Translations under genes and position numbers: made by a program | Notes under the pieces: model-generated | The model's input: only the letters and a program-made list of their open reading frames with translations | Databases searched by the model: none | Told to the model about the DNA's origin: nothing | Source of the DNA: a virus | Reading direction: 5' to 3' (one strand) | Virus record (IMG/VR): IMGVR_UViG_3300030118_000853 | Span: 1-23,424 of that record | Length of the DNA stretch: 23,424 bases | Part shown: piece by piece, positions 795 to 19,565 of the stretch | Layout: each line of letters starts with the position of its first letter | Numbering within the stretch: the first letter of the stretch is position 1

Positions 795-819
795 GTAGGC
801 ACGTGTTATAGCAGACCCA

Positions 820-867
820 GCAGTTTCACTGGCAGTTTCACCCAGCAGTTTCACCGAGCAGTTTCGT
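820..867. repeat. four iteron-like direct repeats, core GCAGTTTCAC
   Basis: The core GCAGTTTCAC occurs at 820-829, 832-841 and 845-854, with a fourth copy GCAGTTTCGT at 858-867 (one internal change at the ninth base). Start-to-start spacing is 12, 13 and 13 bases. Because the spacing is not a multiple of three and the gap has no open frame, this is not a coding repeat. Spacing that short places sites on turning faces of the helix, as in some iteron origins. Which protein binds is unknown. The phage DnaA-like and HTH proteins are candidates. Confidence 0.7.
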
Positions 868-1247: not shown

Positions 1248-1251
1248 AGCA

Positions 1252-1286
1252 CCCCCTGCCCCCCTATGACCCCCCTATATGCCCCC
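1252..1286 (-). promoter_or_regulatory. G-quadruplex motif in the ribosome-loading region of the nuclease gene
   Basis: On the minus (transcribed-sense) strand four G-tracts of 5, 6, 6 and 5 bases are separated by spacers of 6, 5 and 2 bases. This meets the strictest intramolecular G-quadruplex pattern. It ends 4 bases before the nuclease ATG and its first tract is inside the last codons of the HTH gene, whose stop codon (1275-1277) shares a base with the second tract. Such G-runs are very unlikely by chance in this AT-rich genome. Confidence 0.75.
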
Positions 1287-2270: not shown

Positions 2271-2639
2271 TTATTTTAATAATTTTGGTTCTGGTCTATA
2301 ATGAGGTATAGTTTTAGGGTCTTCACCTCTATCAAATTTTGCTCTGGCATCCCATATTAAATCCTTATGTTTTCTTAACCATCTCATGTATGTTGGTACA
2401 TTTAAGTGTATAAAAGAATCGTTTTGTGGATTTCTTATACCTAAATTAAATGCTTGTTCTGCATCTTCAAAGTAAAAATTTTTGTATGTCTTTGATAAAT
2501 CATCTGCTAAACTTTGAGACATAACCATTATAGTATCTTCTTCTACATTGTTTTGTCCTAACTGTATATATGTTTTGCTAATTAAATCTACAGCACCCAT
2601 AAGCAAATCTTCTCTTGACATTGTTTTTATTAGTTTCAT
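2271..2639 (-). CDS. hypothetical protein of the replication operon (122 aa)
   Basis: No named family recognised. The N-terminal half is predicted helical. The central pattern is FEDAEQAFNLGIRNP followed by LNVPTYMRWLRKHK, resembling small proteins found next to replication initiators in Bacteroidota phages, where an aromatic-rich helix pair precedes a W-L-(K/R) segment. Its start overlaps the stop of the upstream initiator-like gene in an ATGA arrangement, so the two are translationally coupled. That coupling suggests, but does not prove, a partner of the initiator such as a helicase-loading factor. Confidence 0.65.
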   Translation of the reverse strand: MKLIKTMSREDLLMGAVDLISKTYIQLGQNNVEEDTIMVMSQSLADDLSKTYKNFYFEDAEQAFNLGIRNPQNDSFIHLNVPTYMRWLRKHKDLIWDARAKFDRGEDPKTIPHYRPEPKLLK

Positions 2640-3280
2640 TGTTTAAATTGTTGTTTTAGTTTTTCTTTTACGTTTATATTTTTTTGTAAGTGCATATGTA
2701 TTTTACTGACACCTGTATTATTATTTTTTGTTTGTCTTTTTTCCCAAGTTCTAACACAACTTTTCCAGCACTTCATTGCAGACTTTCCTATTTTCCAATT
2801 TTTGCTTTCATAAAAATCAAAAAAAGTTTCTGCATCTATTGTATTATTTCTTTGTTTACAATAAATACTAATCTCATCAACAGTTGGTTTCTTAAAACGC
2901 CTTTTATTATTACTATACGTAGTATTATTATTAATACTTGTATTATTATCCTTAAAGTTTTCTTTAATACCCTCCTTAAAGTTTTCTTTAATACCCCCTT
3001 TAAGAATACTTATATACCTCCTATCAATTTCTTTAGTACCCTCTTTGTAAGTGTAATACGTTGATATATAACCATTTGCAACTAATTCACTTATCCACTT
3101 ACTGATAGTAACAACACTCTTGTCATATAACTTAGAAAAATATTTGTTTGTGGCAAAACATTCTCCATTCATATTTAAGAGTGCTGTTATCTCAGCATAT
3201 AGTAACTTAGCATTTGCAGTTAGTTTTTTATCATATCTAACCTCAGCACTTATTACAGCATAATAGTTTGGTCTTTGCAT
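2636..3280 (-). CDS. HTH_36-type replication initiator/replisome organiser candidate (214 aa)
   Basis: Residues about 5-80 match the winged helix-turn-helix found in phage replication initiators and plasmid Rep-like proteins (HTH_36). Visible elements are EVRYDKKLTANAKLLYAEI, then GECFATNKYFSKLY and TISKWISELVANGYI. The middle is a low-complexity Asn/Lys/Thr linker containing a recent tandem duplication of eight residues. The C-terminus has a conserved-looking EISIYCKQRNN...WKSCVRTW block like that of DnaD/replisome-organiser proteins. I chose the ATG at 3278-3280, one base after the SSB stop, over an upstream ATG at 3352 that would overlap the SSB gene by 71 bases. The likely job is origin binding and recruitment of host helicase. 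Confidence 0.75.
   Translation of the reverse strand: MQRPNYYAVISAEVRYDKKLTANAKLLYAEITALLNMNGECFATNKYFSKLYDKSVVTISKWISELVANGYISTYYTYKEGTKEIDRRYISILKGGIKENFKEGIKENFKDNNTSINNNTTYSNNKRRFKKPTVDEISIYCKQRNNTIDAETFFDFYESKNWKIGKSAMKCWKSCVRTWEKRQTKNNNTGVSKIHMHLQKNINVKEKLKQQFKQ
2950..2995 (-). repeat. in-frame 24-bp tandem duplication in the initiator linker
   Basis: The 22-mer at 2950-2971 is repeated exactly at 2974-2995 (period 24 bases), and a degenerate third copy is visible just to the right. It encodes two copies of GIKENFK followed by an acidic residue. The exact identity implies a recent duplication by replication slippage that lengthens the flexible linker. Confidence 0.8.
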
Positions 3281-3281
3281 T

Positions 3282-3545
3282 TTAGAATGGTAAATCATCA
3301 TCTGCAGTTTTCTTTGCAGCAGGTTTAGTATTCTCTTGTGGCTTGTAGTCATTTACATAAGCATAATGAGTAGCACCCTTTTCAGATGGTTCTCTTCTCT
3401 CAGATATAACCATAGACACCCAGCCATTCTTTGAGTTTGCTTGTAAGTCATCTACTTTGAAGTTTGCTACTAACATACTTCCATATTGTGTAGTAATGTT
3501 TTTTATACTACTTGGCAAATAAATTTTCTCTTTTTTCTCTTTCAT
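3282..3545 (-). CDS. SSB-like single-stranded DNA-binding protein (87 aa)
   Basis: The protein ends in DDDLPF, the acidic tip that bacterial single-strand-binding proteins use to dock replication and repair enzymes. A short OB-like body precedes it (beta-rich segments YGSMLVANFKVDDL and GWVSMVISE), then a Pro/Lys/Ala linker. At 87 residues it is about half the length of cellular SSB and could be a minimal SSB or a competitor for SSB partners. It overlaps the end of the DnaA-like gene by 38 bases and is followed after one base by the initiator gene. The grouping supports a role at the phage replication fork. Confidence 0.75.
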   Translation of the reverse strand: MKEKKEKIYLPSSIKNITTQYGSMLVANFKVDDLQANSKNGWVSMVISERREPSEKGATHYAYVNDYKPQENTKPAAKKTADDDLPF

Positions 3546-16915: not shown

Positions 16916-17110
16916 TTACCATTTGTTTTCTGGACATTTACCAAAGAACTCTTTTGTTAGTGATGTTTTTGCATCTAAGAAACATTTACATTTAGCACAT
17001 CTTGCACCATAAGTAAATTTAGGTCTTTTTAATAACAAAAAGTTTCGGTAAAAACTACAACTTTTACATATATCTAATCTTTCTAATTTGGTTTTTTTAT
17101 CAACAAACAT
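16916..17110 (-). CDS. zinc-ribbon protein (64 aa)
   Basis: Four-plus cysteines arranged as CKSC at residues 15-18, then CAKCKC around 38-43 and a final C-P-E-N-K-W give a zinc-ribbon pattern (C-x2-C...C-x2-C...C). The closing CPxxKW is typical of small Bacteroidota phage proteins next to the tape measure gene. It probably binds one zinc ion and may act in protein-protein contacts during tail or head assembly. It starts 19 bases after the tape measure stop. Confidence 0.7.
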   Translation of the reverse strand: MFVDKKTKLERLDICKSCSFYRNFLLLKRPKFTYGARCAKCKCFLDAKTSLTKEFFGKCPENKW

Positions 17111-17129
17111 TTGTTTATATTTTTAATTA

Positions 17130-19565
17130 TTAAATTGTTGCTTGTGCTTGAATTACATTTACAGTGTTTTGACTTTCAGTAATATCCGCCTCTACAACTA
17201 CTACTCCACTATTAGAACTCATTGCACCCATCATTTGATTTTGATTTAAAGCATTGAATTGTTGTTGTGAAAATGAAGGCATATTTAAAAGACCTCCATC
17301 AGCAAACTTAACACCACCACCTGCAACATTCATTGCAGATAATTGGTTTCTAAACATTGCTGTGCTTCTTTTATTTATTACAGCCTCTCCACCTTCTAAC
17401 TCTACAACTCTACCACCTACTGCAAACTTCTCTCCACCTTGTGCGTGTGATTTTCCTTTTACTAACCCACCATCTGCAAATGTGTCAGACATTAATGCTT
17501 TTGCATTAGCAATACCAGATGTTAATGCACCTAAAACAGCAAGTATGTTTATAACCTTTAAATACCATGGAGAGTCTGCTGCTGCACTTGTTACAGCTCT
17601 CACAGCATCTACTGCAGCTTCAGCACTTTTAGCAACTGCAGATGCTTGTGATATTTTTATACCTAATCTTTTTAAACCTATTAATTCTTTTTCTTGTTCA
17701 CCTACCATTATAAGCTGACTGCCTATATCCTGCATAGCTTGTATTCTGTCGCTTACTTCTTTTTTTCTTTGTCTTTCTAAATTTAATTCTTCTTGTGCTA
17801 CAGTTTGTATTCTTTTTAATTCTGAATTTAGAATTTGATTATTAATATCAGCAGTTGATTTTCCATATTCATTAAATAATCCCATCATATTCATAAGATG
17901 TGTCTGTTCAGCATCAAAAGCCATTTGGTCAAACTCTTCTTGTGTGATTTGCTTATCAATCAATTGTTGTGTCAAATCAGACATTTCATCTGTATGAAAA
18001 ATTTCTAGTTGTGTTCTCTTAACCTCAAAAGATTTTCTGTCTGCTTCTTGTTGTTCTTTTAACTCTGTCTGTTTTCTTTTTTCTGCTGCTCTTCTATTTT
18101 TTTCGTCTTGTATATCTTTATCAAGTTGTATTCTATCGTTTTTATTTTTTTCTGCTTTTACTTCTTGGTCTAAAATTTCTTTTAAATCTTCTAAGGCCAA
18201 CTTTCTAGCCTCTATATCTTTTGGCAGGTTTTTTGCAATAAAAGATGCTCTTTCTGCAGAACGACCAAATCCACCTTCTAATTCCTGAGCTCTTTTTAAA
18301 ATTTGTTTTTGTTTTTCTTGGACACGACCTAGACTTTCTATTTCTAGTTCTAATAATTCTGCTCTAGTTTTTGTCTCTACAGGTGCACCACTTTTTTGTA
18401 AATCATCTATTTCTTTTTGAGTGTCTTTAACTCTTTTTAAAGCGTCTGTTAAAAATTGTGAACCAATTTGTTCAGGAGTTTGCATATTACCTACAACTCT
18501 ACTAATAAAATCAGTAAAATCTTGAACAACAGTTCTTACAGCACGAGACATATTACTACTTCCTGTCATTATAGCAATTTCTAACCCCTCCCAAGCAGAT
18601 TTAGCCTTTAAAATATCTCCCTGTAAAGTGTCTGCCATTATATCAGCCATTTCTTGTGCCTTGCCATTAGCATCTTCTAAAGCATCTGTTAAATCTAAAA
18701 CCCTATCAGCACCATTAACCATAGTTTGAAATGCTGCTACCTGTCTTAAATCAACAAGCTCCATCATTTCAGCATTTGAAAGACCTTCATCGTTTAGTTG
18801 TTTTAATGCTTTTTCTAAGTCTGCACTGCTTTCTACAGTAAAGCCTAAATGTTTTGACAGGTCAGAAGCAGGGTCTTGCATTTTCAAGAATATATTTCTC
18901 AAAGATGTACCTGCAATAGAAGCCTCAATACCAGCATCAGTAAGTGTACCCATTACTGCAGAGGTAGACTCTATACTTATAGAAGCAGCAGCAGCAATAG
19001 GTGCTACCTTCGTCATAGATGTTTGAAATTTTTCTATATCTAAAGCAGAACTTGTAAACGCTACAGCCATAACATCAACAACTCTTTGTGTTTCTTGAGC
19101 ATCTAATCCAAAACCTCTTACTGCCGCACCAGCCACAACTGCTGCTCTACCTAAATCTGACTGAGTTGCTGTTGCTAACATTAAAGTAGCCTCTTGTGCT
19201 TCTAAAATTTCTGAAGTGGAAAATCCTAATTTACCAAAGTTTACTTGTAATTCTGCAACTTGTGATGCAGTAAAGAATGTGCTTCTACCTAATTGTTGTG
19301 CAGTATTTGTTAATTTTTTAAAGTCTTTTTCTGTAGAGCCAGTGATTGCTTTTACCTTAGCCATTTCAAACTCAAACTTTGTAAATGTTCTAATAGCACC
19401 AGTAATTGCTTTTTGTATTTGGTTAAAAGCGGCTGTTGCAGTAACTATACCTGCAGTCATTGCTCCTAAACTTTTTGTTGTAGTGCCTGTTCTTTTTTCT
19501 AAGTTTGCTAAATCTTTTTGTCCTTTTACGACTACCTGAACTACTATTCTTTCTGTATTTGACAT
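17130..19565 (-). CDS. tail tape measure protein, TP901 family (811 aa)
   Basis: Residues about 60-370 match the TP901-type phage tail tape measure domain, with FEFEMAKVKAITGS, LGRSTFFTASQVAELQVNF and AVVAGAAVRGFGL visible in order. Residues about 375-640 are Lys/Glu/Gln-rich coiled coil. A hydrophobic stretch near 675-695 (YLKVINILAVLGALTSGI) could enter the host membrane during ejection. The C-terminus has the common FADGGLVKGKSHAQGGEKFA pattern seen in many Bacteroidota phages. By the usual rule of about 0.15 nm per residue the tail would be near 120 nm long. It lies between the gp10-like and zinc-ribbon genes. Confidence 0.92.
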   Translation of the reverse strand: MSNTERIVVQVVVKGQKDLANLEKRTGTTTKSLGAMTAGIVTATAAFNQIQKAITGAIRTFTKFEFEMAKVKAITGSTEKDFKKLTNTAQQLGRSTFFTASQVAELQVNFGKLGFSTSEILEAQEATLMLATATQSDLGRAAVVAGAAVRGFGLDAQETQRVVDVMAVAFTSSALDIEKFQTSMTKVAPIAAAASISIESTSAVMGTLTDAGIEASIAGTSLRNIFLKMQDPASDLSKHLGFTVESSADLEKALKQLNDEGLSNAEMMELVDLRQVAAFQTMVNGADRVLDLTDALEDANGKAQEMADIMADTLQGDILKAKSAWEGLEIAIMTGSSNMSRAVRTVVQDFTDFISRVVGNMQTPEQIGSQFLTDALKRVKDTQKEIDDLQKSGAPVETKTRAELLELEIESLGRVQEKQKQILKRAQELEGGFGRSAERASFIAKNLPKDIEARKLALEDLKEILDQEVKAEKNKNDRIQLDKDIQDEKNRRAAEKRKQTELKEQQEADRKSFEVKRTQLEIFHTDEMSDLTQQLIDKQITQEEFDQMAFDAEQTHLMNMMGLFNEYGKSTADINNQILNSELKRIQTVAQEELNLERQRKKEVSDRIQAMQDIGSQLIMVGEQEKELIGLKRLGIKISQASAVAKSAEAAVDAVRAVTSAAADSPWYLKVINILAVLGALTSGIANAKALMSDTFADGGLVKGKSHAQGGEKFAVGGRVVELEGGEAVINKRSTAMFRNQLSAMNVAGGGVKFADGGLLNMPSFSQQQFNALNQNQMMGAMSSNSGVVVVEADITESQNTVNVIQAQATI

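Follow-up and report, generated by a model that had tools for sequence, protein, structure and literature searches.

A conserved, strand-specific G-tract array of marine phages probably works as a DNA or RNA element and not merely as a switch for the neighboring nuclease gene

The analyzed window, a virus record of 23,424 bases, carries on its minus strand phage structural genes followed by replication-type genes, among them genes for a protein with a DnaA C-terminal domain, a replication initiator, a small HTH protein, and a VRR-NUC nuclease (Table 1). The nuclease scores above the gathering cut-off of its family profile (23.8 bits), and the HTH protein has only weak matches to HTH families (Mor, E = 0.006, below the cut-off). 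At the junction of the latter two genes, reading from 1286 to 1252, four G-tracts are separated by CATATA, TCATA, and CA and followed by TGCT and the VRR-NUC ATG. On rereading the sequence, the tract lengths (5, 6, 6, and 5), the spacers (6, 5, and 2 bases), and the 4-base gap to the ATG reported in the initial annotation proved exact. Its argument that the tracts do not result from base composition is likewise borne out: the window has 26-36% G+C, and the array is its single match to G4 N1-12 G4 N1-12 G4, with 0.00 matches expected from 100 dinucleotide shuffles. The G4Hunter score of the 35-base element is 2.43. The HTH protein indeed ends in residues encoded by the first tract, so that the array is partly coding. 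The HTH and VRR-NUC genes share one reading frame and are separated by just a TAG and nine sense codons (GGHRGAGGA). Because TAG terminates 7 of the 39 likely genes of the window, it is an ordinary stop there, and a general code in which TAG would be a sense codon joining the two proteins was rejected; the only real fusion was found in one relative, L075.

Table 1. Features around the G-tract array in the window
Feature	Coordinates	Strand	Remarks
G-tract array; tracts of 5, 6, 6, and 5	1252..1286	-	Type-A position (HTH/VRR-NUC junction)
Small HTH protein gene, 75 aa	1275..1502	-	C-terminus ...TDGGGI*; TAG (1275-1277) after first tract
Untranslated gap of 27 bases with three tracts	1248..1274	-	Shares the reading frame of the HTH and VRR-NUC genes
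VRR-NUC nuclease gene, 115 aa	900..1247	-	PF08774, 25.1 bits; phrog_5702, Holliday junction resolvase, E = 2e-13
Second direct-repeat array, TGAAACTGC x4, 12-13 bp apart	815..867	-	Just 3' of VRR-NUC

The replication region contains other repeats as well. In all inspected relatives, including those without the G-tract array, VRR-NUC is followed by three to six TGAAACTGC repeats spaced ~11-13 bp apart, with AT-rich DNA preceding them and the promoter-like sequence TATATTTGCA lying further on. This second array is a candidate iteron, operator, or origin, and we treat it as context that is separate from the G-tracts. The initiator gene (2636-3352) itself contains three direct repeats of ~19 nt (minus-strand AAGGAGGGTATTAAAGAAA, at 2959-3046), which are possibly iterons resembling those of lambda O.

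A G-tract array lies directly upstream of VRR-NUC in 76 of the 80 closest VRR-NUC relatives in IMG/VR. In a set of 128 IMG/VR loci, all of which are metagenomic assemblies and not independent counts, the array occupies the HTH/VRR-NUC junction in 91 (type A), stands elsewhere, ~1.5-2.6 kb downstream, in 28 (type B), and is absent from the sequence seen of three (L070, L071, and L079, one clade) despite more than 3 kb of visible downstream sequence; the contigs of the remaining six end too early to decide. The labels of L275 and L276 were set by eye because G-runs inside the HTH gene misled the automatic labeling ('AB' and 'A'), and an extra scan with a type-B query, which yielded mostly contigs already counted, was left out of the 128. 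Junction arrays consist of two to eight tracts, mostly GGGGG, with short AT-rich spacers between them. In the type-B phages, YNE* terminates the HTH gene, which overlaps the VRR-NUC start directly, with no array between, and an array of three to six tracts is found in a mostly noncoding gap ahead of another gene. Where annotated, the type-B array stands 3' of a small membrane-like ORF and 5' of a phrog_2267 gene; in some type-B loci, the small ORF extends into the first tract, which encodes its last residues (FGGC*), the other tracts being noncoding.

No locus among the 128 has arrays at both sites, and a second-site array is absent in all 47 type-A loci whose sequence reaches that place. The closed type-A genome G049 (L384 and L385; 34,008 bp, a terminal direct repeat of 99 bp, and the terminase large subunit gene at 16948-18390), probably a complete genome of this phage family, carries exactly one array. 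In one type-B clade (L256 and its relatives), the HTH gene itself contains three further G-runs (4, 6, and 7; coding for EGIRGEYHRGG), which are located 110-80 nt upstream of the VRR-NUC start and are kept in nearly all clade members, so that one array per genome is true of the main array only. The array is retained next to changed neighbors: in L076, it still adjoins VRR-NUC though a different ORF precedes it, and in L274, the type-B array persists though the preceding small ORF differs. A free tree splits the type-B phages into two clades, but a single clade is not rejected (p-AU 0.42), and we therefore claim only one relocation, as a minimum. In every case, the array is on the sense strand, which is confounded with the direction of replication and packaging. 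Common to the loci are sense-strand G-tracts in the stretch between the replication and terminase genes, and at both sites, the array stands ~0-45 nt before a start codon, after or at the end of the upstream ORF.

This distribution bears directly on the proposal of the initial annotation that a folded RNA quadruplex switches off the VRR-NUC start. The array leaves that start codon in the 28 type-B relatives, and three further relatives keep VRR-NUC without an array in the sequence seen; given that the gene is kept whereas the junction tracts are gone, the switch fails as a general function. It may operate in the small clade of the window itself, with three tracts separating the HTH stop from the ATG. 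A broader alternative, of which the switch is a narrow case, is that an intercistronic RNA quadruplex tunes the mRNA by slowing exonucleases or ribosomes, such that the flanking genes are expressed differently. The location of the array just ahead of a start codon and past the upstream ORF at both sites, the quadruplex predicted for the RNA of most junction arrays (53 of 60), and the three tracts separating stop and ATG in the window all fit this alternative; nevertheless, we consider it unlikely, because the gene downstream of the array is not the same at the two sites, the three-tract arrays of L016-L018 have no predicted quadruplex, and the HTH reading frame extends to approximately the last tract in 54 of the 60 distinct junction arrays, so that translation should unfold the RNA structure. 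Because ribosomes would translate through the tracts, the accompanying claim that the upstream HTH gene remains unaffected does not hold either. The host, judging from gene starts and promoter-like sequence, is presumably a member of the Bacteroidota. The better Shine-Dalgarno match GGAGG is rare (13 occurrences vs. 231 runs of at least five G), and ribosomes of Bacteroidia, the presumed host class, generally do not recognize Shine-Dalgarno sequences (PMC9976891), so that the Shine-Dalgarno-like role suggested as another option is unlikely.

In most type-A relatives, the array is translated as a Gly/Arg-rich tail of the HTH protein, e.g., GGIGGHRGRRGSNIIGGKL, and in most cases no more than 15 bases separate the HTH stop from the VRR-NUC start. 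Of the 286 tracts, 247 are passed by the HTH frame before it closes, compared with 106 and 44 for the other two frames. In L075 (2272-2901), a natural HTH-VRR-NUC fusion, the tail encoded by the G-array serves as the linker, and the near-identical L073 has TAG at the position of the L075 GAG. The window represents a minority state, in which three tracts stay untranslated because of an early TAG; in its clade and in L016-L018, the HTH gene stops early, yet the tracts are kept, and 29 of the 62 distinct junction sequences retain a tract past the HTH stop. Selection at the protein level on an RGG-like tail, with the G-tracts being simply its codons, would explain the open frame, the richness of the tails in Gly, Arg, and Lys, and the linker of L075. 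As the sole cause, however, it is refuted by the type-B arrays, which lie outside any such tail, and it is also at odds with the early HTH stops and with the codons used. GGG accounts for 249 of 402 Gly codons in the junction tails vs. 22 of 449 in the VRR-NUC genes, and AGG for 95 of 124 Arg codons in the tails, both being otherwise rare; among Gly pairs that combine GGG with GGT, GGG-GGT occurs 74 times and GGT-GGG never, the sole observed order being the one that yields a G5 run (these codon counts, as well as the pair counts given below, are not phylogenetically independent). Tracts occur in all three codon frames. Overall, we regard selection on the protein tail as a very unlikely explanation of the array.

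At the type-B site, the pairwise mismatch is 0.06 in tract columns, 0.21 in spacers, and 0.18 in flanks; that is, the tracts are approximately threefold better conserved than their surroundings, and the comparison among relatives proposed in the initial annotation thus came out as tracts kept while spacers vary. The number of tracts changes rapidly, differing in 117 of 170 pairs with flank identity of 94-97%. At flank identity of at least 99%, 8 of 13 pairs of assemblies have identical arrays and none differs in tract number. With respect to the earlier suggestion of a slippage-prone tract, on/off slipping is not suggested by the constant tract number in 13 of 13, although run length does differ in two of these pairs (L053/L064 and L025/L041). 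From the sequence comparisons, the element is maintained in kind and not through the descent of each tract. Such turnover, together with the apparent absence in the L070 clade, would also be expected of a functionless minisatellite, neutral or selfish, in which repeats are gained and lost through slippage or recombination. We find this highly improbable considering the better conservation of the tracts compared with spacers and flanks, the confinement to a single strand with hardly ever a second array site, and the reading frame that stays open across the array. For the L070 clade, the array could be either dispensable or located elsewhere. Contig ends cluster in the array: of 44 ends in the vicinity, 6 are located in the 80 nt that follow the HTH match, with ~1.2 expected, and contigs ending inside the G-array include L116, L127, L130, L162, L168, L261, and L267. 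This circumstantial excess fits a hard-to-copy stretch or sequencing drop-out, or strain polymorphism.

The start-to-start spacing of the tracts is mostly 9-10 (range 6-18), run length varies from 4 to 8 or 9, and, of 391 runs, 340 are preceded by an A and none by a C. The regular spacing and the preceding A, along with the neighboring gene for a putative DNA-binding HTH protein, are compatible with a duplex DNA array of AGGGGGT repeats ~9-10 bp apart, which would be a target of the HTH protein or of some other factor and function, for example, as an operator, origin, or packaging site. We deem this quite unlikely, given the breadth of the spacing and run-length distributions, spacers as variable as the flanks, and the adjacent TGAAACTGC repeats, which are a better candidate for an ordinary binding site. 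Nonetheless, the preference for A counts against a quadruplex, which does not need it. A packaging terminus at the array was rejected because both ends of near-complete contigs are scattered with respect to VRR-NUC and because, in the closed G049 genome, TerL begins ~4.5 kb downstream. A GC-skew switch marking an origin was also rejected, the sign being constant in G049 save for a weak dip at 13-16 kb.

The window array matches the canonical intramolecular G-quadruplex motif (four tracts of at least three G with short loops on one strand), as do four tracts of at least three G in 54 of the 60 junction arrays; the six arrays that differ indicate that a simple intramolecular quadruplex is not universal. 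Under an energy model, the predicted minimum-energy RNA fold includes a quadruplex in 53 of the 60 junction arrays, and for the window the calculated energy is -49.7 kcal/mol with the quadruplex vs. -15.7 without it. No quadruplex is predicted for the three-tract arrays L016-L018, which could presumably form a cotranscriptional quadruplex only in the form of a DNA:RNA hybrid or through a smaller number of tetrads. The array in these phages is likely a G-quadruplex. By the QmRLFS rule, an R-loop requires an initiation zone and an elongation zone of at least 100 nt with at least 40% G (PMC4489302). With 63% G, the array can count as an initiation zone, but none of 76 arrays is followed by a G-rich elongation zone, the best in the window having 20% G, so that long R-loops are not expected by this rule.

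The array is a family-wide feature of these phages. A pattern scan of all viral contigs for similar arrays recovered mostly this family and a few scattered others; an unrelated 45.5-kb viral contig (L092:1-81) opens with approximately nine tandem copies of AATAGGGGG. An Illumina poly-G artifact was dismissed since many metagenomes show the same ordered, one-strand array. In INPHARED, the window has no DNA match to known isolates and close isolates are absent; P12024S and its kin, distant relatives, lack the array; and no close prophage was found in GTDB genomes. The literature search, to which subscription journals were mostly inaccessible, found no description of such an array.

Since the tracts are retained better than spacers and flanks, the strand is constant, the array has more than one location, and GGG and AGG tail codons supply G-tracts beyond the need of the protein, what is conserved is a nucleic acid element. 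The G-run array of these marine phages thus probably works as a DNA or RNA element and not merely as a switch for the nuclease gene: a role in VRR-NUC translation is a misfit with type B, and a role of the protein tail with both type B and the codon order. Sense-strand tracts at all loci and the folding predicted in 53 of 60 make a cis-acting, cotranscriptional quadruplex the simplest reading. We assign a probability of roughly 0.5 to the interpretation that the four tracts are the window phage's copy of a conserved, strand-specific array that acts as a nucleic acid element, most likely a cotranscriptional G-quadruplex. Usually there would be one main array per genome, in a transcribed region beside replication genes. 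Transcription would expose the G-rich sense (non-template) strand, allowing a quadruplex to form in the nascent RNA, in the DNA strand that is displaced, or from both together as a hybrid, and the folded array could act in cis as a roadblock or polar mark in replication, recombination, or module expression. Quadruplex folding, its dependence on transcription, and the process served are what we infer here. A bolder extension, which we put forward as speculation and hold to be rather doubtful, is that a whole dsDNA phage family depends on a portable, transcribed G-quadruplex array as a cis-element, which starts or steers replication or recombination. The array would persist by relocating and, in most members, would be written inside a gene, the same bases thereby providing both a nucleic acid structure and an RGG-like protein tail.

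Viral quadruplex motifs are often proposed on predictor score alone, whereas here comparison shows that the tracts themselves are retained. The same bases are shared by the G-tract element and a Gly/Arg-rich protein tail, and the natural series of two to eight tracts makes a phage quadruplex function directly testable.

Several known systems provide points of comparison. The extended Shine-Dalgarno sequence of rpsU in Flavobacteriales (PMC9976891) is similar in that AGGGGGU could pair with the anti-Shine-Dalgarno sequence, with one G-U pair, but the phage motif is repeated and mostly translated, and the better match GGAGG is rare. Immunoglobulin switch-type R-loop zones, as captured by QmRLFS, likewise contain several non-template G-clusters with more than 50% G and a matching initiation zone (PMC4489302). 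Unlike these, the phage arrays have no G-rich elongation zone (0 of 76 reach 40%). The pilE G-quadruplex of Neisseria gonorrhoeae is cis-acting and requires both transcription and a particular orientation, demonstrating that elements with such dependences exist (PMC3547852). It resembles the phage array as a G-tract motif kept in place on one strand, the strand of the array being likewise constant, and differs from it in lying upstream of one gene with its own sRNA promoter (PMC3547852). The phage array, known from sequence alone, is larger, fast-changing, usually inside an ORF, and found at two sites in the family. In the case of mitochondrial conserved sequence block II, two long G-runs on the non-template strand have a known role in termination and priming. 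The phage array shares with it the non-template G-runs near replication functions but has 2-8 short tracts and a putative role. If the portable-array reading were true, the element would be a phage counterpart of the pilE quadruplex or of conserved sequence block II.
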